From: Gemmatimonadaceae bacterium
GTDB lineage: Bacteria > Gemmatimonadota > Gemmatimonadetes > Gemmatimonadales > Gemmatimonadaceae
DNA: 57,365 nucleotides
Assembly (NCBI GenBank): GCA_019752115.1
Contig: JAIEMN010000042.1
Location: 1 to 57,365 of the forward strand
Direction of reading: 5' to 3'
The notes under the pieces are model-generated. The model was not told where the DNA came from and made no database searches. It saw only the letters and a program-made list of their open reading frames with translations. This document shows, piece by piece, positions 2,567-57,300 of this stretch; the stretch's first letter is position 1, and the number at the start of each line of letters is the position of its first letter. The translations under genes were made by a program, and so were the position numbers.

Positions 2567-4123
2567 ATTTCTGCTCAACCCCTCCGCCTGAGCGAGTTCG
2601 TCGCCACCCTGGCGCTCGCGCAGGACAACGCCTTCGGGCAGCCGCTCGAGTCCCAGCTCCGCTCCTGTCTGCTGGCCGCGTGGCTTGCCGAGGCGGCGGC
2701 GGTGCCCCCCGCACAGCGCGCCACGACCTACTGGGTGGCGCTGCTGCGCTACATCGGTTGCACCGGCCACGCACACGAGGTGGCCACGCTCTTTGGCGAC
2801 GAGATCGCCATTCGCGCCGCGACGCTCACGCACAACGCTGCCAATCCACCGGAGGTCATTCGCGATGTGATCGCCTATGCCACCGCCGGCCGCGAACAGG
2901 CCGAGCGCGAGGCGATCGTGCAGTTCATTCAGCAGAACGCGCGGGAGTGGGCCACACACAACTTCGCCTCGGGGTGCGAAGTGGCCGACATGCTGCTCGA
3001 GCGCATCGAGTTCGGCGCCGATGTGCGGGAATCGCTGCGCTATACCTTCGAGCGCTGGAACGGCAACGGCTATCCCACGCACACCGGTGGTGAGGCCATT
3101 CCGCTGCCGATGCGCATCGTGCACCTATCGCACGACATGGAGGCGATTGCCCGCCTCTTCTCACCGGAGCGGGCGCTCGAGGCGGTGCAGGAGCGGCGCG
3201 GCGAGACGTACGATCCGGCCTTGGCCGATCTCTTTGCGGCCCGCGGCGCCGAGTGGTTTGCACGCCTCGCGCGTACTGAACCGTGGGATGCGGTGCTCGA
3301 CCTGGAGCCGCATCCGCGACGGATTCTCGAAGGCGCCGCGCTCGAGAATGCGCTCCTCATGGCGGCCGACTTCATCGATCTCAAGTCGCCGTACATGGGT
3401 GGTCACAGTCGTCGCTGCGCACAGCTGAGTGGCGATGCGGCGCTGGTGCTGGGGTATAGTGACGCGGAGCTCACCGCGCTTCGCCGCGCCGCACTGCTTC
3501 ACGATTTTGGTACCACCGCCGTTCCCAACTCGATCTGGGACAAGACCGGGACGCTCACGCGCGCCGAGTTCGATCGTGTGGAGATGCACCCGCTGCTGAC
3601 CGAGCAGATGCTGCGCCGCTCCCCGGCGTTAGCGGTGCTCAACCGGATCGCGAGCGCGCATCACGAAAAGTGTGACGGCTCGGGGTATCACAAGCGCGTG
3701 CGCACCGACGCGATCGACCCGGGTGCTGCCGTGCTGGCGGCGACGGAAGTGTATGTCGGACTGACGAGCGATCGGGCTCACCGCCCCGCGCATCCGGCCG
3801 ATGTCGCCGCGCAGCAGCTCCGCGATCTGGCCTCGGCGGGCGTGCTCGATGCGCGGGCGGTACGCGCAGTGCTGGTCGCGGCCGGCCACGGTGAGCCGGC
3901 CGCGCCGAGCGTCAAGCGCGGCAAGCACCCGGGCGGCCTGTCACGACGCGAGGTCGATGTGCTGCGACTGGCGGCGCGTGGGCTGACGACCAAGGAGATC
4001 GCCGAACGCCTCTTCATCTCCACGAAGACGGCCGATCACCACATCCAGCACGTCTACGTGAAGATCGGCGTCAAGACGCGCGCCGCGGCGGCGCTGTGGG
4101 CGATGTCGAACGCGGTGGTGTGA
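2567..4123 (+). CDS. HD-domain protein with C-terminal LuxR-type HTH
   Basis: About 518 residues. Two HD/HD-GYP-related segments occur: a degenerate first half (ALLRYIGCTGH, RWNGNGYP) and a second with HSRRCAQLSG, LLHDFGTTAVPN, MHPLLTEQML and SAHHEKCDGSGYH. A LuxR/NarL HTH ends the protein (LSRREVDVLRLAARGLTTKE and ISTKTADHHIQHVY). This architecture suits a regulator that couples a phosphohydrolase or sensor module to DNA binding. Family-like coding sequence (RLSEFVATLALA, then a Leu/Ala helix) continues upstream of the first GTG (2702) to an ATT at 2567, which lies 6 nt after GGGAGAG. I therefore propose the rare ATT start. If wrong, the annotated protein would begin at GTG 2702 and lack its first 45 residues. 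It is divergent from the ligand-binding gene and may respond to it. Confidence 0.85.
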   Translation: MSAQPLRLSEFVATLALAQDNAFGQPLESQLRSCLLAAWLAEAAAVPPAQRATTYWVALLRYIGCTGHAHEVATLFGDEIAIRAATLTHNAANPPEVIRDVIAYATAGREQAEREAIVQFIQQNAREWATHNFASGCEVADMLLERIEFGADVRESLRYTFERWNGNGYPTHTGGEAIPLPMRIVHLSHDMEAIARLFSPERALEAVQERRGETYDPALADLFAARGAEWFARLARTEPWDAVLDLEPHPRRILEGAALENALLMAADFIDLKSPYMGGHSRRCAQLSGDAALVLGYSDAELTALRRAALLHDFGTTAVPNSIWDKTGTLTRAEFDRVEMHPLLTEQMLRRSPALAVLNRIASAHHEKCDGSGYHKRVRTDAIDPGAAVLAATEVYVGLTSDRAHRPAHPADVAAQQLRDLASAGVLDARAVRAVLVAAGHGEPAAPSVKRGKHPGGLSRREVDVLRLAARGLTTKEIAERLFISTKTADHHIQHVYVKIGVKTRAAAALWAMSNAVV

Positions 4124-4133
4124 GGTGGGAGTA

Positions 4134-4234
4134 TGAACTGATCCATCCAAGGCATCCGAGACGTTGGAGGCATTCAAGAACCGCGGTTCTCGGATGACTC
4201 GGACGCCTTGAACGCCTTGGATGCGATCAGTTCA
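4134..4234. repeat. intergenic dyad repeat with TGAACTGATC ends
   Basis: Perfect 10-bp terminal inverted repeats, TGAACTGATC (4134-4143) and GATCAGTTCA (4225-4234), enclose a second pairing stretch: CATCCAAGGC on the left and GCCTTGGATG on the right. The interior is made of approximately 9-nt units (CATCCAAGG, CATCCGAGA, CATTCAAGA) mirrored on the right arm, with a GAACCGCGGTTC palindrome at the centre. It fills the gap between the convergent HD/LuxR and nitroreductase genes. It may act as a two-way transcription terminator; no T-run is present. Confidence 0.8.
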
Positions 4235-4243
4235 ACCCATCAC

Positions 4244-4804
4244 TCAGTCGCGCCACACGGTCAGCTCGGCCGCGGGCCGGCGCGTCTTGGGAGGCGGCAC
4301 TTCGAGCGGCTCGCCAACCGTGAGGACGGCCACGATGCGCTCGTTCTCGGCGACACCCACCGCCGCGCGTGCGGCCGGGTCGTCCATGATGGCACCGGAG
4401 CGAATGTAGGTGCCGAGCCCGTGCGCCACCGCCGAGAGGCAGAGCGTCTGCACCGCCATCATCGTGGCGGCGTAGTCTTCCTCGCGGATCTCGGGGTTGT
4501 CGTTGAGCGTCATCGCCACGATCACCATGCTCGGCCACGCGCGGTGCTGATCGCTCGTGTCCTTCCGGATCTGCTCGGCATGTGCCTCGTCGGTCGCCTT
4601 CTTGGCCTTCCGGTTGCCCAGGGCGAGGCCGTAGGCGGCGCGGGCCTCAGGACCGCACACGTAGAAGCGCCACGGCTGCGTGAGGCGGTGATTCGGCGCC
4701 TGGTTCGCGTCGTGAAAGAGCCCTTCGAGCTGCTCGCGGGTGGGCGCGGTCTCGGTGAAGGCGCGGATGGAGCGGCGGGCAGCGATGGCGACAGAAACGT
4801 TCAC
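4244..4804 (-). CDS. nitroreductase family FMN oxidoreductase
   Basis: A 186-residue protein typical in length for the small (YdjA/TM1586-like) nitroreductases. The N-terminal RRSIRAF (residues 10-16) is the FMN-phosphate contact motif. NQAPNHRLTQPWRFYV provides the second flavin segment, and the C-terminal AHGLGTYIRSGA and the GEPLE segment close the fold. These enzymes reduce nitro compounds, quinones or enones with NAD(P)H in the cytoplasm; the native substrate cannot be read from sequence. It is monocistronic and convergent with the HD/LuxR gene, with the dyad repeat between them. A TTAGCTTG promoter-like box sits about 41 nt upstream of its ATG. Confidence 0.9.
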   Translation of the reverse strand: MNVSVAIAARRSIRAFTETAPTREQLEGLFHDANQAPNHRLTQPWRFYVCGPEARAAYGLALGNRKAKKATDEAHAEQIRKDTSDQHRAWPSMVIVAMTLNDNPEIREEDYAATMMAVQTLCLSAVAHGLGTYIRSGAIMDDPAARAAVGVAENERIVAVLTVGEPLEVPPPKTRRPAAELTVWRD

Positions 4805-7509: not shown

Positions 7510-8499
7510 GTGCGTCGCTGGTTGCTGGCGGCGGCGTTGCTTGGCGCGTGCCGTAGCGCCCCACCGTCGCATGTGGAGCCGGCGGACACGTATCTGTTCT
7601 CGTACTTCACCCGCAACGGCGAAGACGGTCTGCACCTCGCCGTGAGCGCCGACGGCACCACGTGGGAGCCGCTCAACAGCGGGGCGTCGGTGCTCACGCC
7701 CACGGTGAAGGGGAAGGGGCGCGATTGGCAGCAGTGGGATACCGAGGCCGCGCTCATGCGCGATCCGAGCATCGTGCGCGGCCCCGACGGCATGTTCCAC
7801 ATGGTCTGGACGATCGCGTGGAACGACCGCGGCATTGGTGTGGCGCACTCACGTGATCTCGTCCACTGGAGTGCCCAGGAGCGCGTGGGGGTGATGGATC
7901 ACGAACCCACGGCACTCAATGCGTGGGCGCCCGATCTGTTCTACGATGCCGACACGAAGCAGTTCGTCGTCGTGTGGGCCACGGCCATTCCGGGGCGCTT
8001 CCCGGCTACCGACTCGATGGCGCAGCGCACGAGTCGTGGGCGCGCGGATCATCGGTTGTACTACGTCACCACACGCGATTTTCGCACGTACACCAAAGCC
8101 GCCTTGCTGTACGATGGGGGCTTCACATCGATCGATGGCACGATCGCGCGCGTCGGACCGGGGCGTTACGCGCTGGTCATGAAAGACGAGACGTTTTATC
8201 CGGAACGGCGCAATCTGCGCGTGGCGTTCGCCTCGCGTGCCACCGGTCCGTACGGTCCAGCCGCTCCGTCGTTCTCGGCGTTGCACACGGAGGGGCCATC
8301 GACGCTGTTCCGCGATGGCTGGTGGTACGTGTACTTCGACGAGTACACGCGCGGGCGCTATGGCGCGGTGCGGACCCGCGACTTTGTGCGATTTGAGTCG
8401 TGGGCCGATTCGCTCAAGGCGCCGCGGGGGATGCGGCACGGGTCGGCCTTTCTGGCGCCACGCTCGGTCGTGGATGCTCTGCGACGATTGGTTCGTTGA
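7510..8499 (+). CDS. GH43-type glycosidase lipoprotein (arabinofuranosidase/xylosidase-like)
   Basis: A 329-residue lipoprotein with GTG start and a short signal ending in the lipobox LLGAC, Cys14 being the lipidation site. The five-bladed propeller pattern of GH43/GH62-like clans is visible: MRDPSIV supplies the probable base Asp85, NAWAPDLFYD the pKa-modulating Asp142, and HTEGPSTLFRDGWWYVYFDE the probable acid Glu261. Such enzymes remove arabinose or xylose side groups. It lies 2 nt after araD, so substrate release and catabolism are in one operon. The TGA stop (8497-8499) overlaps the left end of a dyad repeat, so the insertion may have set the C-terminus. Confidence 0.85.
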   Translation: MRRWLLAAALLGACRSAPPSHVEPADTYLFSYFTRNGEDGLHLAVSADGTTWEPLNSGASVLTPTVKGKGRDWQQWDTEAALMRDPSIVRGPDGMFHMVWTIAWNDRGIGVAHSRDLVHWSAQERVGVMDHEPTALNAWAPDLFYDADTKQFVVVWATAIPGRFPATDSMAQRTSRGRADHRLYYVTTRDFRTYTKAALLYDGGFTSIDGTIARVGPGRYALVMKDETFYPERRNLRVAFASRATGPYGPAAPSFSALHTEGPSTLFRDGWWYVYFDEYTRGRYGAVRTRDFVRFESWADSLKAPRGMRHGSAFLAPRSVVDALRRLVR

Positions 8500-8611
8500 A
8501 CTGCACGCACAGAGGACACAGAGCCACCGAGAACACTGGGGCGCGCTTCGATATCTGCCGGAGCACGCCCCTGTGAACTCTGTGGCTCTGTGTCCTCTGT
8601 GCGTGCAGTTC
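8498..8611. repeat. perfect 30-bp inverted repeat with CACAGAGG units
   Basis: The left arm (8498-8527) begins GAACTGCACGCACAGAGG and is exactly complementary over 30 bp to the right arm (8582-8611), which ends CGTGCAGTTC. The 54-nt interior continues to pair imperfectly: GAACACTGGGGCGCG faces a GCACGCCCCTGTGAACTC stretch. Units of the form CACAGAGG recur about every 9 nt. It sits between convergent genes and includes part of the GH43 stop codon. Clearly homologous to the element at 16006-16120. Confidence 0.92.
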
Positions 8612-8619
8612 CAATCACC

Positions 8620-9123
8620 TTACCCTGGCGCCGGCGCCCGCCGCAGCTGATACACAAAGTCACAATGCGACGCCCCGCCCATGATGGTCTGGGTGCGGGT
8701 GAACTCCACGTCCGGGTTGAACCCCGCCATGAGCGCGCCATCGCGCTGACAGGAGAACACCGCACCGAGCTCAGGTACGCCGAGCGCGCGGTACATCTCG
8801 GCGTAGCGGCAGCGCGTCACGTTGAAGGCGAATCGTTCCGGCGTCTGCTCCACCACATCAATCGTGAGCGCCTCATCGGCGGTCCAGCGATCGAGCGTGC
8901 CGGCGAAGTGGGCGAGCGAGCAGCCACCGGCGAAATCGGCCAGCTGCGCGCCCTGTGCTTCGGCAAGATCGCGAATCACATCCCGCGCGATGGCGTGCAC
9001 ACGCTCAGCGCCGAACTCGCGGCTCATGGCGGCGAGCATGGGCGCGAGGATGCGCGCCTCGATGAGACGGCGCCGAAGGACACCGATGGCGTTGAGTTCC
9101 GCGTCCGTCGGCAGTGCGCTCAT
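8620..9123 (-). CDS. L-2-amino-thiazoline-4-carboxylic acid hydrolase (ATCH) family protein
   Basis: A 167-residue soluble protein with the ATCH-family pattern: an N-terminal helical part (ILAPMLAAMSREFGAERV) and then FNVTRCRYAEMYRALGVPEL and AVFSCQRDGALMAGFNPD, containing the conserved Cys residues and RxRYAEMY-type segment. The founding enzyme opens a thiazoline ring on the way to L-cysteine, but most family members have unknown substrates. Its ATG overlaps the araB stop (ATGA), so it is translated with the kinase and is the last gene of the isomerase-araB operon. A role in sugar metabolism is suggested by position only. A longer frame to 9303 is rejected because it runs into araB. Confidence 0.85.
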   Translation of the reverse strand: MSALPTDAELNAIGVLRRRLIEARILAPMLAAMSREFGAERVHAIARDVIRDLAEAQGAQLADFAGGCSLAHFAGTLDRWTADEALTIDVVEQTPERFAFNVTRCRYAEMYRALGVPELGAVFSCQRDGALMAGFNPDVEFTRTQTIMGGASHCDFVYQLRRAPAPG

Positions 9124-14490: not shown

Positions 14491-15990
14491 TTGGTTGTGA
14501 GCACTCCCCGCATCCGCTTTCGCGGCATCACCAAGCGCTTTCCCGGCAACGTCGCACTGCGCGATGTGAGCTTCGAGGTGGGCGTGGGGAGCTGTCACGC
14601 CATCTGCGGTGAGAACGGTGCGGGGAAGAGCACATTGGGGCGCATTCTCGCCGGCATTCATCACGCCGACGAAGGGACGATCGAGCTGGATGGGCAGGCG
14701 GTCCACTTCGCCACGCCGCGCGACGCGCTCGCCGCCGGCGTGGCGATGGTGCATCAGGAGCTCGCCTTCTGCGAGAACCTTACGGTGGCCGACAACCTGT
14801 CGCTCGGTGTGCTGCCGCGAAAGTTCGGCTTCGTGGATACCGCGGCGCTGCGAGCGCGGGCGCGCGAGTTGCTGAGCGCCATCGGGGCGTCGATCGATCC
14901 CGCGCGTGCCATGTCGTCGCTGAGTGTGGCGGAGCAGCAGGTGGTGCAGATCGCCGCCGCCGTGGGCGCCGGCGCCAAGGTCATCATCTTTGACGAGCCG
15001 ACCAGCAGCTTGGGCGAGACGGAAGCCGAGGCGCTGTATGCGTTGATCCGCTCGCTGCGGGATCGTGGCGTGACGCAGCTGTTCGTGTCGCACCGCATGC
15101 CGGAGATCTTCGCGTTGTGCGACCACATCACGGTGCTGCGCGACGGGCAGCATGTGGCCACACAGCCCACCACGTCGCTCGACGAGGCGGCGCTGGTGCG
15201 GCAGATGATCGGCCGCGAACTGCAGGCGTATGTGGCGCCGCCGGTGCAGCATGCGCTGGGCGCCGAACGGTTGCGTGTGGCGCGGCTCTCGAGCGCGGGG
15301 CATTTTCGCGAGGTGAGCTTTGCGGTGCGCGCGGGCGAGATCGTGGGGCTCGCGGGGCTCGTGGGTGCTGGGCGCTCGGAGGTGGCGCGCGCGATCTTCG
15401 GGCTCGACGCGCGCGCGACGGGCGATGTGTTCGTGGATGGCGCGCGCGTGCAGATCCGCACGCCGCAGGATGCCGTGAAGCTCGGCATCGGGTTCGTGCC
15501 CGAGGACCGCAAGAAGCAGGGGCTCGTGCTTGGCATGCGGGCGCGCGAGAACTCCACGCTGCCCATTCTGCGGCGCTTTGCGAAGGCCGGGCTGGTGGAT
15601 CGCGCGGCGGAATCGCGAGCGGTGGACGCGGCCTTTGGTCGGGTGGCGTTCCGCCGCGGTGGAGAGATCACGGTCGCGAGCCTGAGCGGCGGCAATCAGC
15701 AGAAGGTCGTGCTGGCCAAGTGGCTCACGGCATCGAGCGAGATCCTCATCCTCGATGAACCGACCCGCGGCGTGGATGTCGGTGCCAAGGCGGAACTGCA
15801 TGCGTGGATCGCCCAGCGCGCGGCGGAGGGGGCGGCGATTTTGCTGATCTCGTCGGAGCTGCCCGAGCTGCTCGGCCTCGCGTCGCGCGTGCTGGTACTG
15901 CGTGAGGGGTCGCTGCGCGGCGAGCTGTCGCGTGAGGCGGCAACGCAGGATGCGGTGCTGCGGCTCATGACCGGGCTCGGCGCGGCGTAG
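14491..15990 (+). CDS. sugar ABC transporter ATP-binding protein (AraG/RbsA type, two ABC domains)
   Basis: A 499-residue duplicated ABC ATPase. Domain 1 has Walker A GENGAGKST (residues 40-48), signature LSVAEQQVVQIAAAVG and Walker B VIIFDEPTSSLGE. Domain 2 has the altered Walker A GLVGAGRSEVARAIFG, VPEDRKKQGLVLGM, signature LSGGNQQKVVLAKWL and Walker B ILILDEPTRGVDVGAK. Loss of the second Walker A lysine (GAGRS) is normal for this CUT2 class. It energises uptake with the permease and binding protein upstream; the gap to the latter is only 4 nt. The start is TTG 14491 or GTG 14497; neither has a strong ribosome site, suggesting coupled translation. Confidence 0.92.
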   Translation: MVVSTPRIRFRGITKRFPGNVALRDVSFEVGVGSCHAICGENGAGKSTLGRILAGIHHADEGTIELDGQAVHFATPRDALAAGVAMVHQELAFCENLTVADNLSLGVLPRKFGFVDTAALRARARELLSAIGASIDPARAMSSLSVAEQQVVQIAAAVGAGAKVIIFDEPTSSLGETEAEALYALIRSLRDRGVTQLFVSHRMPEIFALCDHITVLRDGQHVATQPTTSLDEAALVRQMIGRELQAYVAPPVQHALGAERLRVARLSSAGHFREVSFAVRAGEIVGLAGLVGAGRSEVARAIFGLDARATGDVFVDGARVQIRTPQDAVKLGIGFVPEDRKKQGLVLGMRARENSTLPILRRFAKAGLVDRAAESRAVDAAFGRVAFRRGGEITVASLSGGNQQKVVLAKWLTASSEILILDEPTRGVDVGAKAELHAWIAQRAAEGAAILLISSELPELLGLASRVLVLREGSLRGELSREAATQDAVLRLMTGLGAA

Positions 15991-16005: not shown

Positions 16006-16120
16006 TGAACTGATCGCACAGAGGACACAGAGTCACAGAGGTCACTGGGGCGCGTTTCGAATCGATCGAAGCGCGCCTCTGTGTTCTCTGTGGCTCAGTG
16101 TCCTCTGTGTGATCAGTTCA
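16006..16120. repeat. long dyad repeat with TGAACTGATC ends and CACAGAGG units
   Basis: Two 49-nt arms (16006-16054 and 16072-16120) match at 42 of 49 positions as an inverted repeat around a TTTCGAATCGATCGAAG loop. The ends are TGAACTGATC and GATCAGTTCA, identical to those at 4134. Inside, ACAGAG units recur at 8-9 nt steps. It lies between the convergent ABC ATPase and GH127 genes and follows a TTTTTT run on the plus strand. As RNA it would form a hairpin of nearly 50 bp on either strand; a role as bidirectional terminator is inferred. Confidence 0.92.
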
Positions 16121-16148: not shown

Positions 16149-18653
16149 CTACCGGCGCACCACCCGAAGCCCGTAAATAGGTACGATGCGCGCGCCTTCA
16201 ATGCGCACGGTCAGCACCGACTTGCCACGTGAGAGCTCCGCAGGCAGTTCGTAGGTGGCGTCGTAGAAGCCCGACGCGTGCGGATTCGGCTTCGGGGCCA
16301 CGACCTGGGTGCCGTCCACACGAATCGCGAAGTCGCCGATGGGTGCCGGCAGCCCGGGGTCGTTGAAGTACGTCACCACCAGCGCCAGTGCGGCGGTCGC
16401 GTCGCTCGGCATGGTGTACTCGAAGAACCCGGCGCCGCCGCGGCCAGTTCGGCGGTTCGCGCGGCTCACGGGGCGGTCGGCGGGTTCGCTTCGATACTTC
16501 AGCGCGGCTTCAGCGGCGGCATCGCCGAAGGCCACTTTGCTGATCGTCGCGCGCTCCAGTGCCTCGGCTGCCGCCTTGCTGCGCGCAAGGGCCACGGTGC
16601 GTGCTTCGAACTCCTGCGGCGTCAGCACATCCTGGTAGATGCCATACGTTCGCTTGTGCGTGCGATAGAACGGGCGGAAGGTGACATCCGCATCGCTGCC
16701 ACTGCCGCCGGGAACGCGCATCACGCCACGGGTGCGAAACTCGCCGGTGGCCACGGGCGCCAGCAAGTCGGCCGGCGAGCGCGACGCACTCACCATCACC
16801 GCGCCCAGACTGCCGAACTCCTGGGCGGCGTTCTCGTTGGCTTCGTTGTTCTCGCGGCCGGTGCGTCGCGGGCCATGATCGGCGGCGAGCACCAGCGGGC
16901 CCCACAGAAAGGCCGCGACCGAAGGGTCATCGGGCGTGGGCTCAAGTGTCACCGTCTTGGGGATCTGCATGCTGACGGTGTCACCGCTCCTCCAGGTGCG
17001 CGTGAGACGCACATAGGTGCTCGCTCCGTGCTCGCTTTCGTTCCCCACCCCACCGGCGCGGCCGCCGGCCACGGGATCATTCAACGACGCGACCGATGGC
17101 TGCGGCAGGTTCTCGCCGTTCACCGCGATGCGGAAGCCGTCGCCGGCCCAGAGTGGGCGACGTACCGCAAGCGTGAACGCGGTCGGCTTCGTGACAGTCA
17201 CCGTGACGGTGGCACTATCGCCGTCGGGGAAGCCGGTGTCGAGTGCGAACTGCGCCGGCACCATCGTGGTCGTCGCCGTGCTCGGCACGAAGAGGTTGAG
17301 CCAGACCGTATCGCGACTTTCGTACCAGACGCCGAGCCCGTGCAGCGCGTGGCTCTCCATACCGCTTCCCACGCAGCAGGTGAAGTCGCGCTGCATGTCC
17401 TGATACTCCTGCTGCTCGCGGCGCCCAACCGGCACCATGTAGCTGGTGCGTCCTTCGTCGGGCTCGATGGAGCCGAGGATGTGATTGAAGAGCGCGCGCT
17501 CGTGGAAGTCGGCGTACGCGGCATCGGGGCGGAAGGCGAACAGGCGCCGCGTGAGCTTGAGCATGTTGTACACATTGCACGTCTCAGCGGCGCGGCCATC
17601 CACGCGCGGCGCGAGCGCATCGGGCGGGCCGAAGTACTCGGCGAGACCATGCCCGCCCGTGGCGTAGCTGTGATGCCGCACCACGCGGTCCCAGAAGAAG
17701 CTCGCGGCCATGATGTCCTGCGGATCGGCGGTGTAGCCGTAGCGCGCGGCGGAGCCGATGAGCTTGGGGATCTGACAGTTGCCGTGCTTGCCGGAGAGGT
17801 TGTCCTGATGGCGCTTGAGGGGCTCGGTGAACGCGTGGTGCTCGAAGCGCAGCGACAGATTGAGCCAGCGCGGGTCGTTGGTATCTGCGTACAGGTCGGC
17901 GAACACTTCGTTCATGCCGCCGAACTCGGTGAGCAGCATCTTCTGCACCTGGTCGTCGCTGAGCGGCTTGATCACCCCCTCGGCCCACGCGGCGAATCCC
18001 TTCTCCACGGTGAGCGCCTGCAGGTTACCCGTGTGTCGATACGCGTCGCGCAGGCCGGCGAAGGTTTTGTGCAGCGTGTACCATGGCGACCAGAGGCCAT
18101 TGAGGTCGAACGCGCCGCTCTTGATGTCGCCCTTGCTCACGCGCGCAAACGCATCGCGCAGCCCCTCGAGTGCGCCACAGTAGCCATCGCCGTTCTTGGC
18201 CTGCACTTCGGCCAAGCCCTTCACCAGATAGTCGGCGCGCTGCTTGAAGCGCGCATCACCGGTGGCCTTGTACATGAGCGACACCGCCGACAGATGATGA
18301 CCGGCGATATGCCCCGTGAGATTACGCCCGGTGCCGTCCCAGCCGGTGAGTGGCTTGGCGGTGGTGGGGAGCCCGGCCTGCGTGCGATAGGCGGCGAGCA
18401 TCCGATCGGGGTCGAGCGCGAGCAGGTAGGCGATGGTCACGTCCTGCGCGCGCTTGAGCGGGCCGCCGGTGAGACGCACGCGCTCCAGCGGGACCGGGTG
18501 CGCCTTCAGCATCCGACGCTCATGCTCGAGCACCGGATTCGCTGGCGCGGCGGCTTCGAGCGCCTCGGCGCCGCGCTCGGCGATGGGCGAGAGCGTCAGC
18601 GCGGCGGCCGTCGTGGCGGCGCTAGTGATGAAGTCGCGGCGGGTCGTGGCCAT
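16149..18653 (-). CDS. GH127 beta-L-arabinofuranosidase-type glycoside hydrolase
   Basis: An 834-residue exported enzyme with twin-arginine-like start ATTRRDFITSAATTAAALT. The alpha/alpha-barrel core shows LTGWDGTGRNLTGHIAGHHL, EFGGMNEVFADLY, GKHGNCQIPKLIG and the zinc/thiol site of the family: AETCNVYNMLK (Glu357, Cys359) and TCCVGSGMESHA (Cys426, Cys427). One of the vicinal Cys is the proposed nucleophile in characterised GH127 enzymes. A C-terminal beta region with an added module follows. It releases beta-linked L-arabinofuranose, complementing the GH43 lipoprotein and the arabinose importer. Long for GH127 (typically about 650), because of the C-terminal addition from about residue 640. 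Confidence 0.93.
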   Translation of the reverse strand: MATTRRDFITSAATTAAALTLSPIAERGAEALEAAAPANPVLEHERRMLKAHPVPLERVRLTGGPLKRAQDVTIAYLLALDPDRMLAAYRTQAGLPTTAKPLTGWDGTGRNLTGHIAGHHLSAVSLMYKATGDARFKQRADYLVKGLAEVQAKNGDGYCGALEGLRDAFARVSKGDIKSGAFDLNGLWSPWYTLHKTFAGLRDAYRHTGNLQALTVEKGFAAWAEGVIKPLSDDQVQKMLLTEFGGMNEVFADLYADTNDPRWLNLSLRFEHHAFTEPLKRHQDNLSGKHGNCQIPKLIGSAARYGYTADPQDIMAASFFWDRVVRHHSYATGGHGLAEYFGPPDALAPRVDGRAAETCNVYNMLKLTRRLFAFRPDAAYADFHERALFNHILGSIEPDEGRTSYMVPVGRREQQEYQDMQRDFTCCVGSGMESHALHGLGVWYESRDTVWLNLFVPSTATTTMVPAQFALDTGFPDGDSATVTVTVTKPTAFTLAVRRPLWAGDGFRIAVNGENLPQPSVASLNDPVAGGRAGGVGNESEHGASTYVRLTRTWRSGDTVSMQIPKTVTLEPTPDDPSVAAFLWGPLVLAADHGPRRTGRENNEANENAAQEFGSLGAVMVSASRSPADLLAPVATGEFRTRGVMRVPGGSGSDADVTFRPFYRTHKRTYGIYQDVLTPQEFEARTVALARSKAAAEALERATISKVAFGDAAAEAALKYRSEPADRPVSRANRRTGRGGAGFFEYTMPSDATAALALVVTYFNDPGLPAPIGDFAIRVDGTQVVAPKPNPHASGFYDATYELPAELSRGKSVLTVRIEGARIVPIYGLRVVRR

Positions 18654-18968
18654 GCTTGGTTCCGTGAGAGGACGTGGGCTGGGTTAGAATCCGGCGCGAT
18701 CGCGATTACGGCAAGAGGTTCCGCGAGTCTGTGGGACTCTTTGCTGGACGGTGGATTTCGCGGATGGTTTGGGATTTCGCGGATAACGGAAACAGCACAA
18801 CAGGATCAATGGGGATACTAGGGATCACGGGGATGGGTGTTTGGCGCGGAATAATCCGTAAAATCCGTGGAATCCTCACATGCAGTTTCAGTTATCCGCG
18901 AAATCCCTGAAATCCACGGAATCCCTGAAATCCACGGAATCCCTGAAACCCACGAAATCCCAAAGCGC
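18654..18968. repeat. intergenic region with 17-bp dyad and 9-nt tandem array
   Basis: This 315-nt gap separates the divergent GH127 and glycosylase genes. GGGATTTCGCGGATAAC (18771-18787) is perfectly inverted at 18891-18907. The right arm runs into a tandem array (18900-18961) of seven 9-nt units of the form GRAAYCCMN, such as GAAATCCAC and GGAATCCCT, with an 18-nt higher-order period. A partial copy, GTGGATTTCGCGGATGG, lies at 18751. The array ends 7 nt before the glycosylase ATG. No promoter is obvious; no other gene is seen here. Confidence 0.85.
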
Positions 18969-26720: not shown

Positions 26721-26751
26721 CGCTTCCGGGGTGAAGGAGGAACCGCACACT

Positions 26752-26843
26752 GCCGCAAAGGGGCACGAGGGGCCGGGGGCCACGAAGGGGCGATGTACAA
26801 AGTACTTCCTCGTGGCCTCCCATGTCTTCGTGCCCCTTCTCGG
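26752..26843. repeat. intergenic dyad repeat with CACGARGG units
   Basis: AAGGGGCACGA (26758-26768) pairs with TCGTGCCCCTT (26828-26838), and GGCCACGA (26778-26785) with TCGTGGCC (26810-26817), around a GTACAAAGTAC core. CACGA units are spaced about 17-18 nt, twice the 9-nt step of the CACAGAGG elements. Located between the divergent yjdM and VPS10-like genes, about 30 nt upstream of the former. Confidence 0.8.
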
Positions 26844-26913
26844 CTGTTCTCTGAAACTGGCCCGGCAACCACATCCGGTGGCACATTAGGAGACCCCCTT
26901 CCGGAGCTCCGTC

Positions 26914-41784: not shown

Positions 41785-42291
41785 ATGAGCACACAACCTG
41801 AGTGGTGGCTGCGCGGCCCGGTGGACGGCGTGCCCGTCGCGTTGCAGCCCGCGGCGCACATGGTGCTGCAACTGCGCGATGAACTGCAGCCGCATGTGGC
41901 CGATCTCACCCTTGCGCAGTGGAACGCCCGCCCGGCCGGCGTCGCGTCGATTGCGTATCACGTGCGGCATATCGCGGGTGTGCTCGATCGCATGGGCACG
42001 TACGCGCGCGGAGCACTCCTCGATGATGCGCAGAAGGCGGCGCTCAAGGGCGAAGGCGAGCCCCTCGTGCAGGATGACCGCGCGGCGCTGCTGGCGCGGC
42101 TCGATGCGCAGATCGAAGCCAGTCTCGCCCAATACCGTGAGACCGATCCCGCCACGCTCGGTGACGTGCGCGGCATCGGTCGCGCGGCGCTGCCGAGCAC
42201 CGTGATTGGGTGTCTGATGCACGGGGCGGAGCATGGCATGCGCCACTTGGGGCAGCTGATCGTAACCGCTCGTGTGGTGCGTGGGGCGTAG
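41785..42291 (+). CDS. DinB family protein
   Basis: A 168-residue four-helix-bundle protein. The metal-binding His positions are IAYHVRHIAGVLDRM (about residue 60) and MHGAEHGMRHLGQLIVTARV near the C-terminus, the usual HxxxH-type ligand set. LTLAQWNARPAGVAS matches the DinB helix 2 region. Possible role: thiol-dependent detoxification or hydrolysis; substrate unknown. It is 10 nt downstream of the YVTN gene and closes that operon. Four nucleotides after its stop a CACAGAGG dyad repeat begins. Confidence 0.9.
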   Translation: MSTQPEWWLRGPVDGVPVALQPAAHMVLQLRDELQPHVADLTLAQWNARPAGVASIAYHVRHIAGVLDRMGTYARGALLDDAQKAALKGEGEPLVQDDRAALLARLDAQIEASLAQYRETDPATLGDVRGIGRAALPSTVIGCLMHGAEHGMRHLGQLIVTARVVRGA

Positions 42292-42295
42292 TTCG

Positions 42296-42417
42296 TTGAA
42301 CTATCTCGCACAGAGGCACAGGGAATCACAGAGGAGCACAGAGGGTTTCGACTTTCCGCGTCGGACTGTTCGCGGTCCTCTGTGCTCCTCTGTGATGCTC
42401 TGCGCTCTCTGTGCGAG
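42296..42417. repeat. intergenic dyad repeat with CACAGAGG units
   Basis: Begins TTGAACT like the elements at 8498 and 16006. CTCGCACAGAG (42305-42315) pairs with CTCTGTGCGAG (42407-42417), and ATCACAGAGGAGCACAGAGG (42325-42344) pairs perfectly over 20 bp with 42377-42396. The right end lacks the AGTTCA terminus. It lies between genes on the same strand, about 35 nt before the TTG start of the SRPBCC gene. Confidence 0.9.
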
Positions 42418-42451
42418 GCCGTAAAGAAACTCACAGTGGAGGAGGTGTCCG

Positions 42452-55888: not shown

Positions 55889-57153
55889 TTCGCGCGGAAG
55901 CGTCTCGCGCGGAGGCACGGTGGGCACGGAGGGGCACGGAGGTGCTGCTGTGTGTGCTGCCTTCGCTCCTCGTCGCTCAGAAGAAGCCCGCTGCGCCGGC
56001 GGTGTATGTGCCGCCGGCTGGGGCGTGGGAGCGAAAGTCGCCGAGTGCGGTGGGGCTCGATTCGGTGAAGCTCGAGGCGGCGATTGCCTTTGCGAAGTCG
56101 AAGGAGAGCAAGACGCCGCGCGAGTGGGAGCAGAATCACTACCAGACGTTCGGGCGTGAGCCGCTGGGGCAGCTGATTGGCCCGATCATCGACCGCGGCG
56201 ACGAAACGGGGCTCATCATTCGCAAGGGCTACGTGGTGGCGCAGTGGGGGAACCCCGAGGCGATCGAGATGACCCACAGCGTGACCAAGAGCTTCTTGAG
56301 CACCGTGGTGGGGCTCGCGTTCGACGCGGGGCTGATCAAGAGCACGCAGGACACGGTGGCCAAGTATGTGCCACCCATTCTGCGCGCGATGCCCAACGGC
56401 ACCGGCTTCGCCGCCGACTGGCCGGGCGATGCCCGCTGGCTCAAGCCGTTCGATTCGCCGCACAACAAGCGGCTCACGTGGGATGTGATGCTGCGGCAGA
56501 CGAGTGACTGGGAAGGCACGCTCTGGGGCAAGCCCGAGTGGGCCGATCGCCCCGCGCAGGATGCGAGCACCTGGCGCACGCGCCCGCGCGTGGAGCCGGG
56601 CACGGTGTACGAGTACAACGACGTGCGCGTGAATGCGCTGGCGCTCGCGACGCTCATGGTGTGGCGCAAGCCGCTTCCTGAGGTGCTCAAGGAGAGGATC
56701 ATGGACCCGATCGGTGCCTCGAACACGTGGCGCTGGTACGGCTATGACAACTCGTGGGTGATTCTCGACGGCAAGCAGGTGCAGAGCGTGAGCGGCGGCG
56801 GCCACTGGGGCGGCGGCATGTTCATCAACGCGTGGGACATGGCCCGCTTTGGCCTGCTCACGCTGCGCCGCGGCAAGTGGGGCGACAAGCAGCTGCTGAG
56901 CGATGCGTGGGTGACGCAGGCGCTCACCCCCACGAAGGTGCAGCCGACCTACGGCTTCATGAACTGGTTCACGAACCCGGACCACAAGTTCCTCGCGAGC
57001 GCTCCGGTGGAAGCCTTTGTGCACGTGGGGAATGGGAACAACATCATTTACGTCGATCCCGTGAATGACATCATTGCGGTAGTGCGGTGGATTGATACGA
57101 CGCCGTCGATTGATGGGTTTGTGCAGAGGATGCTGGCGGCGGTACAGCGCTAA
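55885..57153 (+). CDS. exported serine hydrolase (beta-lactamase class C fold)
   Basis: A 422-residue protein translationally coupled to the VPS10-like gene (ATGA). The N-terminus is odd: an Arg/Ala/Glu-rich stretch (residues 1-17) encoded partly by GGCACGGAG repeats precedes a short hydrophobic core, LLCVLPSLLVAQ. The catalytic Ser and Lys are Ser132 and Lys135 in MTHSVTKSFLSTV. The second motif reads YEYNDVRVN (YND at 244-246 instead of YxN), and GGGHWGGGMFINAWDMARFG is the conserved late segment. The family includes esterases, peptidases and 6-aminohexanoate-dimer hydrolase-like enzymes. The long open N-terminus leaves the true start uncertain, but ATG 55885 overlaps the preceding stop. 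Confidence 0.88.
   Translation: MIRAEASRAEARWARRGTEVLLCVLPSLLVAQKKPAAPAVYVPPAGAWERKSPSAVGLDSVKLEAAIAFAKSKESKTPREWEQNHYQTFGREPLGQLIGPIIDRGDETGLIIRKGYVVAQWGNPEAIEMTHSVTKSFLSTVVGLAFDAGLIKSTQDTVAKYVPPILRAMPNGTGFAADWPGDARWLKPFDSPHNKRLTWDVMLRQTSDWEGTLWGKPEWADRPAQDASTWRTRPRVEPGTVYEYNDVRVNALALATLMVWRKPLPEVLKERIMDPIGASNTWRWYGYDNSWVILDGKQVQSVSGGGHWGGGMFINAWDMARFGLLTLRRGKWGDKQLLSDAWVTQALTPTKVQPTYGFMNWFTNPDHKFLASAPVEAFVHVGNGNNIIYVDPVNDIIAVVRWIDTTPSIDGFVQRMLAAVQR
55911..55943. repeat. GGCACGGAG repeats within the start of the serine hydrolase gene
   Basis: Three units of the form GGCACGG, at 55914, 55923 and 55933, spaced 9 and 10 nt, lie inside codons 9-20 of the gene. They resemble CACAGAGG and CACGAAGG units in the intergenic dyads, but no inverted arm is visible nearby. 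Confidence 0.6.
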
Positions 57154-57156
57154 GCT

Positions 57157-57300
57157 CAGAAGTCAGAGGTCAGAGGTCAGATATGAGTAACCCCTCAGGT
57201 ATCAGGGGGGAGGACGAAAGGGAGTGGGCATCAGGACCGCGGTTCATGCTGTCCTGATGCCCACTCCCTGTAACCCTTCCCCCTGATGCCTTGTATGTCC
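57157..57300. repeat. intergenic repeat block with an 18-bp perfect dyad
   Basis: GTCAGAG units (7-nt period) at 57162-57181 are followed by nested inverted repeats. GGGAGTGGGCATCAGGAC (57220-57237) pairs perfectly with 57251-57268, and the outer ATCAGGGGGGAGG near 57201 pairs imperfectly with CCTTCCCCCTGAT near 57276. It follows the serine hydrolase stop and may end its transcript. The rest of the window to 57365 holds no recognised gene. Confidence 0.85.

Follow-up and report, generated by a model that had tools for sequence, protein, structure and literature searches.

The window analysed here, 57,365 nt long, is one whole contig (C42) of the 83-contig, 5.17-Mb host genome, which is 97% complete. 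Gaps between converging genes in the window hold long imperfect inverted repeats, or dyads, built from short repeated words, to which no strand is assigned. The 4134 element (4134..4234), between genes at 2702-4123 (+) and 4244-4804 (-), consists of CATCCAAGG words, with 40-nt arms that are 78% complementary and span 4144-4223, plus TGAACTGATC/GATCAGTTCA caps (fold z -10.3; period 9). The 8498 element (8497..8612), between genes at 7573-8499 (+) and 8620-9123 (-), is made of CACAGAGG words, and its 53-nt arms (8498-8611) are 89% complementary (fold z -14.7). The 16006 element (16006..16120), likewise of CACAGAGG words, lies between genes at 14497-15990 (+) and 16149-18653 (-); its 55-nt arms are 85% complementary (fold z -13.9) and it is capped by TGAACTGATC/GATCAGTTCA as is the 4134 element. 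A looser dyad of CACAGAGG words, the 42296 element (42296..42424; fold z -11.8), occupies a tandem gap 5 nt past the stop of the gene at 41821-42291 (+), and its 29-nt arms (42316-42405) are 90% complementary. The earlier note's description of these four as long imperfect inverted repeats is thus borne out, with arms 78-90% complementary and fold z of -10.3 to -14.7. The window contains 11 copies of CACAGAGG, compared with 1.9 expected and with 0/100 shuffles reaching 11, and all 11 copies lie inside the 8498, 16006 and 42296 elements. Rfam gave no match above the gathering score within the window.

The sites that had been put forward as looser relatives fared unequally. The 18771 element (18760..18968, no strand assigned), in a divergent gap, is a dyad in a CGGAT/CGGAA dialect (GGGATTTCGCGGATAAC..GAAACAGC) that has a moderate fold z of -5.0 and includes, at 18894-18961, a 9-nt array; the 26752 element (26738..26860, no strand assigned), also in a divergent gap, is a weak dyad of GCAAAGG/CACGAAGG words (fold z -3.7); the 55911 site (55905..55945, + strand), at a gene start, is a short direct repeat of three GGCACGGAGG units with no dyad or hairpin (fold z +1.6). 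An additional dyad at 57156-57300, following a gene that ends at 57153, has TCAGGGG words with a 7-nt step (fold z -7.7); its family (AACCCCCGAGAGYTCAGGGGG.., with a centre resembling AGGACCGCGGTCCT) recurs in the host genome, with no GxxExxY neighbour (see below) seen.

The step between words is a property of each family. Period 9 is the peak in the left halves of the 4134, 16006 and 18771 elements (z 3.7-4.0) and weakly at 8498 (z 1.7), and the step of 42296 peaks at 10; in the arms pooled over 62 host dyads, step 7 is strongest (z 8.3), followed by 13-14 and 9. A universal 9-nt step was rejected on the strength of that pooled peak. The idea that period is more conserved than sequence is right only in part; 9 nt is the step of the CACAGAGG and CATCCAAGG families, but not of all. 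A strict periodicity scan (28/36 identity) found zero 9-nt arrays, the degeneracy of the words putting them beyond its reach.

We surveyed 835 kb of host sequence, with genes taken from a simple custom gene caller. Ungapped inverted repeats with at least 20 net pairs numbered 62, compared to 0 in Markov shuffles. Nearly all 62 are of the window's kind and draw on several word sets: CACAGAGG, CATCCAAGG, ACCCACAACCAAAAACCC (here the cap sequence is central), TCAGGGGG, TGCGGAGGGGCGGAG, GCATACG and GTCGGGG. Dyads scoring at least 18 were placed in convergent gaps (32), tandem gaps (28), divergent gaps (5) and coding sequence (3), most of them 2-30 nt from a stop codon. An element was present in 27 of the 35 convergent gaps of 60-250 nt but in only 1 of the 42 shorter ones, and therefore the elements make gaps long, as insertions would.

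Further copies of the window's elements occur genome-wide. The 16006 element has about a dozen in the host at 77-87% identity, and the whole genome holds 153 copies of GAACTGATCR compared to 10 of the reversed pattern. Each of the 25 intergenic GAACTGATC sites in the 835 kb lies inside a dyad (24 by scan, 1 by eye), the other GAACTGATC sites being coding. Nine CACAGAGG copies could be aligned end to end, cap and loop included, and copies at distant sites thus have these non-repeated parts in common. A covariance model of the nine copies gave 90 strand-matches in the host, equivalent to ~45 dyads, most matched on both strands; among the window's elements, 8498 scored 127 bits and 42296 scored 44.5 bits. 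The same model matched 24 of 30 genomes of the genus, although, as a model of a long hairpin, it may catch unrelated long hairpins and its cross-family counts are upper bounds. Dispersed copies that share caps, words and loop, together with a candidate partner gene, support the non-autonomous repeat class proposed in the earlier note.

Turnover among relatives is fast. Five genomes of the same genus (G004, G006, G021, G028 and G029) each have their own vocabulary in the same kind of place. At 8 gaps compared across three close species (G006, G009 and G018; most flanks match those of G006 at 90-98% identity), elements were conserved, inverted, deleted in part or replaced: at 2/8 gaps one species has, between the same two genes, a dyad unrelated to that of the others; at 1/8 (G006 C14:68929) a whole element, loop included, is inverted in G009 relative to the two others; and at 1/8 there is an internal 140-nt deletion. 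These 8 gaps included no clean empty site; no target-site duplication was evident, and no precise insertion or transposition was seen. Across relatives, the 3' end of one orthologous gene is followed by no gap, by CACGGAT-word dyads, by CGCGGAT-word dyads or by an ordinary terminator.

The words also extend far beyond the phylum. Base counts alone put the chance expectation for the exact array CACAGAGGNCACAGAGGNCACAGAG at ~0.01, but it was found in at least 120 stretches, from Chloroflexi, Planctomycetes, Proteobacteria, Bacteroidetes, Cyanobacteria, Acidobacteria, Nitrospirae, Lentisphaerae, one Streptomyces and others. Among the 120 stretches listed, 32 fall within ORFs of at least 150 aa, compared to 75% of random positions, and 79 have a dyad no more than 220 nt away. 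No DNA match of the 16006 element to a phage or plasmid was found, and an origin from either was rejected on that basis.

Beside arrays in CACAGAGGNCACAGAGGNCACAGAG loci we recognised genes for GxxExxY proteins (TIGR04256; PF13366, PDDEXK_3), the protein of locus L226 scoring well above the curated cut-offs (144.4 bits versus 35, and 141.6 versus 22). The host has 8 GxxExxY genes above cut-off. Those on contigs C7 and C20 adjoin CACAGAG hairpins, that on C24 a CATCCAAGG hairpin with GAACTGATC caps and that on C78 a CACGGAT hairpin; those on C31 and C25 are enclosed by dyads, and that on C2 has none. The window's elements tie in with these genes: the dyad adjoining the gene at C7:60818 is 83% identical to the 8498 element, the family of the 4134 element also adjoins the gene at C24:224655, and a hairpin like the 18771 element lies upstream of the GxxExxY gene on C37. 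Among the 120 CACAGAGG loci listed (826 kb), 4 have a GxxExxY gene, in each case 6-55 nt from the array and in 2 with arrays on both sides, and these four belong to other phyla; at L221 the gene is flanked by TTCACCACAGAGGACACAGAGGGCACAGAG and by a reverse-complement copy of it. Both L221 and L352 show a radA-GxxExxY-FAD protein arrangement, as found in Bacteroides.

In a set of 48 distinct GxxExxY loci, all but one from the host genus, an adjacent or enclosing dyad was found at 31, compared to 67 of 574 controls, which were genes about as long (odds ratio 13.8, p 8e-16, too small a value since kinship among genomes is ignored in the tests), and an enclosing dyad at 8/48 compared to 4/574; for 17 of the 48 no nearby dyad was detected. 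GxxExxY was carried by 24 of 25 genomes of the host genus versus 1 of 16 outside it in the same sample, and by 61 of 200 genomes across the phylum. Among those 200 it was present in 19 of 22 CRCRGAGRNCRCRGAG-rich genomes versus 42 of the 178 others (p 1e-8, for related genomes), with two or three word-rich genomes lacking it (G203, G058, G116). Long dyads of this size were absent from 265 kb of two GxxExxY-free relatives, compared to 1.5-7.3 per 100 kb in six carriers. The gene is rare outside chromosomes, in 7 of 72,556 plasmid records and 0 of 50,697 phage records, and none was found in a search of viral_contigs that reaches close relatives only. Judged by eye, word repeats adjoin all 7 plasmid genes, several forming a dyad around the gene, in sources as varied as Bacteroides, Gemmatirosa, Bernardetia, Sphingomonas, Persicobacter, Prevotella and Treponema. 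GxxExxY alone turned up repeatedly within dyad arms, and it did so in several phyla. In the DNA the dyads are paired with this candidate partner gene, GxxExxY (PF13366/TIGR04256), which, we infer, would mobilise them.

Some loci depart from the simple arrangement. In L308 (G013) the GxxExxY gene lies between inverted arrays of more than 300 nt each, with a ~40-nt compound unit of CACGGAGG-like words. In L217 (13-441) its frame continues into the CACAGAGG array, gaining the tail PSVSSVPSVNSVVKK; such protein tails, and spurious small ORFs, may originate from arrays. Several vocabularies were seen apart from the gene, and for the AACCC, TCAGGGG, GCATACG and GTCGGGG families no GxxExxY neighbour was found in the DNA examined. 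In AACCC-word dyads with TGAACTGATCAGTTCA central (host L028 14410-14499, L043 16150-16235 and L037 9255-9334), the cap sequences known from CACAGAGG dyads sit inside out, which gives the look of a circular permutation. Dyads of GCATACGTG/GTATACG words, up to 179 nt (host L023 15808-15986, L029 13210-13370 and L055 66-159), and long GTCGGGG/CCCCGAC repeats with nested inverted copies (G006, C3:81598 and C7:13890 regions) have no known partner.

In a tree of 59 GxxExxY proteins, two clades were separated with support of 97/97. CAGAG/CGGAG words dominate the flanks in 26 of 29 members of one (2 opposite, 1 undecided), and CGGAT/CGGAA-type words in 26 of 30 of the other (0 opposite, 4 undecided), giving a Fisher p of 2e-13 that is too small in view of the related genomes. 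The word classes had been named after the flanks were seen, and the test was repeated without preset words: a 5-mer classifier, with whole protein clusters left out, told clade from the near flanks with an accuracy of 0.75 (AUC 0.82; 0/100 permutations as good), itself selecting CAGAG and CGGAG versus CGGAT and CGGAA, and performed poorly on flanks 600-1000 nt off (AUC 0.60). The host genome holds both clades, each with its own dialect. The proteins of L226 and L221 belong to clade 1 and that of L313 to clade 2. Since the nuclease branches go with different words, the data suggest an unrecognised nuclease-linked mobile DNA family. A protein-binding array, as the earlier note had offered among other roles, fits this match of two clades to two dialects, binding itself being putative.

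The PD-(D/E)XK site is conserved in these proteins, with D and E-x-K present in 57/59 and QxxxY in nearly all. The nearest solved structure to a GxxExxY structure model (pLDDT 90) was SSO0001 (Z 9.3), a Cas4 nuclease; Hjc resolvases, lambda-type exonucleases and restriction enzymes followed below Z 8, a level that is weak by itself. Both the Pfam assignment and the conserved site are in line with this fold, and GxxExxY is thus a predicted small Cas4/Hjc-like PD-(D/E)XK nuclease. A sequence search among solved structures found no relative of it. Two GxxExxY proteins had no match in PADLOC, leading us to reject an anti-phage defence system, and PHROG gave no match.

We consider it probable, at roughly 60%, that GxxExxY (PF13366/TIGR04256) is the partner gene of a mobile-type dyad, of which the hairpins of the window are non-autonomous copies. 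A dyad in the nuclease's own dialect, whether duplex, hairpin or cruciform and perhaps extruded, would be recognised and cut; repair would then copy a dyad to a new gap or in place of an existing one. Copies without the gene, such as those of the window, would be moved in trans, and gaps between converging genes would be where insertions harm least. Such a cycle of recognition, cutting and repair would account for the dispersal of dyads, the vocabulary shared within a genome, the replacement of dyads by unrelated ones and the preference for harmless gaps. More tentatively, with the odds somewhat against so broad a statement, the dyads could be a bacteria-wide selfish DNA in which a Cas4/Hjc-like nuclease, with no transposase, spreads dyads via short words, clades and dialects co-evolving.

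The position of the dyads just past stop codons and their enrichment in convergent gaps could also be read as the mark of 3'-end RNA hairpins, acting as bidirectional terminators or 3'-end guards, selected for shape and spread by recombination, with GxxExxY irrelevant. Unrelated dyads do replace each other at the same site, as such a role would allow, and inverted repeats are frequent near bacterial terminators (PMC13155455). However, as a rule there is no U-tract and, at the 4134, 8498, 16006 and 42296 elements, no T run after the caps; U-tract terminators occur at least as often where a gene end has an element (11/80) as where it has none (13/150); short convergent gaps mostly do without elements; and in relatives an element can sit between the stop and an ordinary terminator. 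Ordinary terminators are thus not replaced, the earlier note's suggestion of a terminator is not supported, and the GxxExxY pairing and the dialects are left unexplained, so that we regard this explanation as quite improbable.

Unlikely too, if a little less so, is an origin without any mobile element, in which slippage and template switching at palindromes create the dyads and GxxExxY, as a host nuclease, processes or polices hairpins, its gene placed near its substrate. The family-specific steps of 7-10 nt, the 140-nt internal deletion and whole-element inversion between close species, the Hjc/Cas4-like fold and the scarcity of the gene in phage and plasmid records would all suit it, but it does not readily provide for non-repeated caps and loop common to distant copies, or for a gene inside the dyad in several cases. 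That the dyads are miniature elements of an unrecognised ordinary transposase (IS or RAYT), with GxxExxY as a passenger, would be in keeping with their MITE-like form and conserved ends; we nevertheless give it very little credence, given that the genome has no RAYT and that no gene other than GxxExxY recurs within the arms.

What is new here is GxxExxY as the partner gene of a hairpin class. Arrays such as CACAGAGGNCACAGAGG are present in very many bacterial genomes, where they can break assemblies and yield spurious small ORFs, with no explanation in the literature searched; in that literature (one limited library) no paper ties GxxExxY to repeats or prints the arrays as a bacterial family, and we found no named family either, in keeping with the earlier note. 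The link to one nuclease family provides a testable role for GxxExxY and a testable cause for the repeats, and the match of clade to dialect predicts a specificity for sequence or structure, which could be put to assay using a synthetic hairpin and the protein, of 125 residues.

Among known systems, the TAACTGA repeats of Beggiatoaceae (PMC4679880) are likewise abundant short-unit intergenic repeats in one lineage, but are described as direct repeats, palindrome and nuclease being unmentioned there, whereas those studied here are dyads with a nuclease. MITEs of insertion sequences share with the present elements a non-autonomous, dispersed nature, inverted ends and common internal sequence, but no same-ended transposase or target-site duplication was found here, and the arms are word repeats that vary between genomes. 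The closest parallels are REPIN/RAYT, in which each repeat group lies beside its own copy of the transposase gene (PMC3116915), and the GTAG/CGTC-tagged REPs (PMC3733652): like these, the dyads are many-copy, short, hairpin-forming inverted repeats, dispersed and extragenic, mostly after genes, with groups each beside their own enzyme-gene copy, by which REPINs are thought to be moved in trans. In those systems the enzyme is a tyrosine (Y1) transposase; PF01797 (RAYT) had 0 matches in the 97%-complete host genome, control genomes matching as expected, and a RAYT/REPIN origin, or derivation from a REP family, was rejected accordingly. No GTAG/CGTC tag was evident by eye at the dyad caps, and, unlike in REPINs, the arms average ~45 nt, consist of repeated words and can enclose a gene. 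By analogy, this system may function in the manner of REPINs and yet not belong to them, its partner being a PD-(D/E)XK nuclease, and, if the mobility is true, REPIN-like elements would have been invented a second time, independently, with an enzyme from another superfamily.
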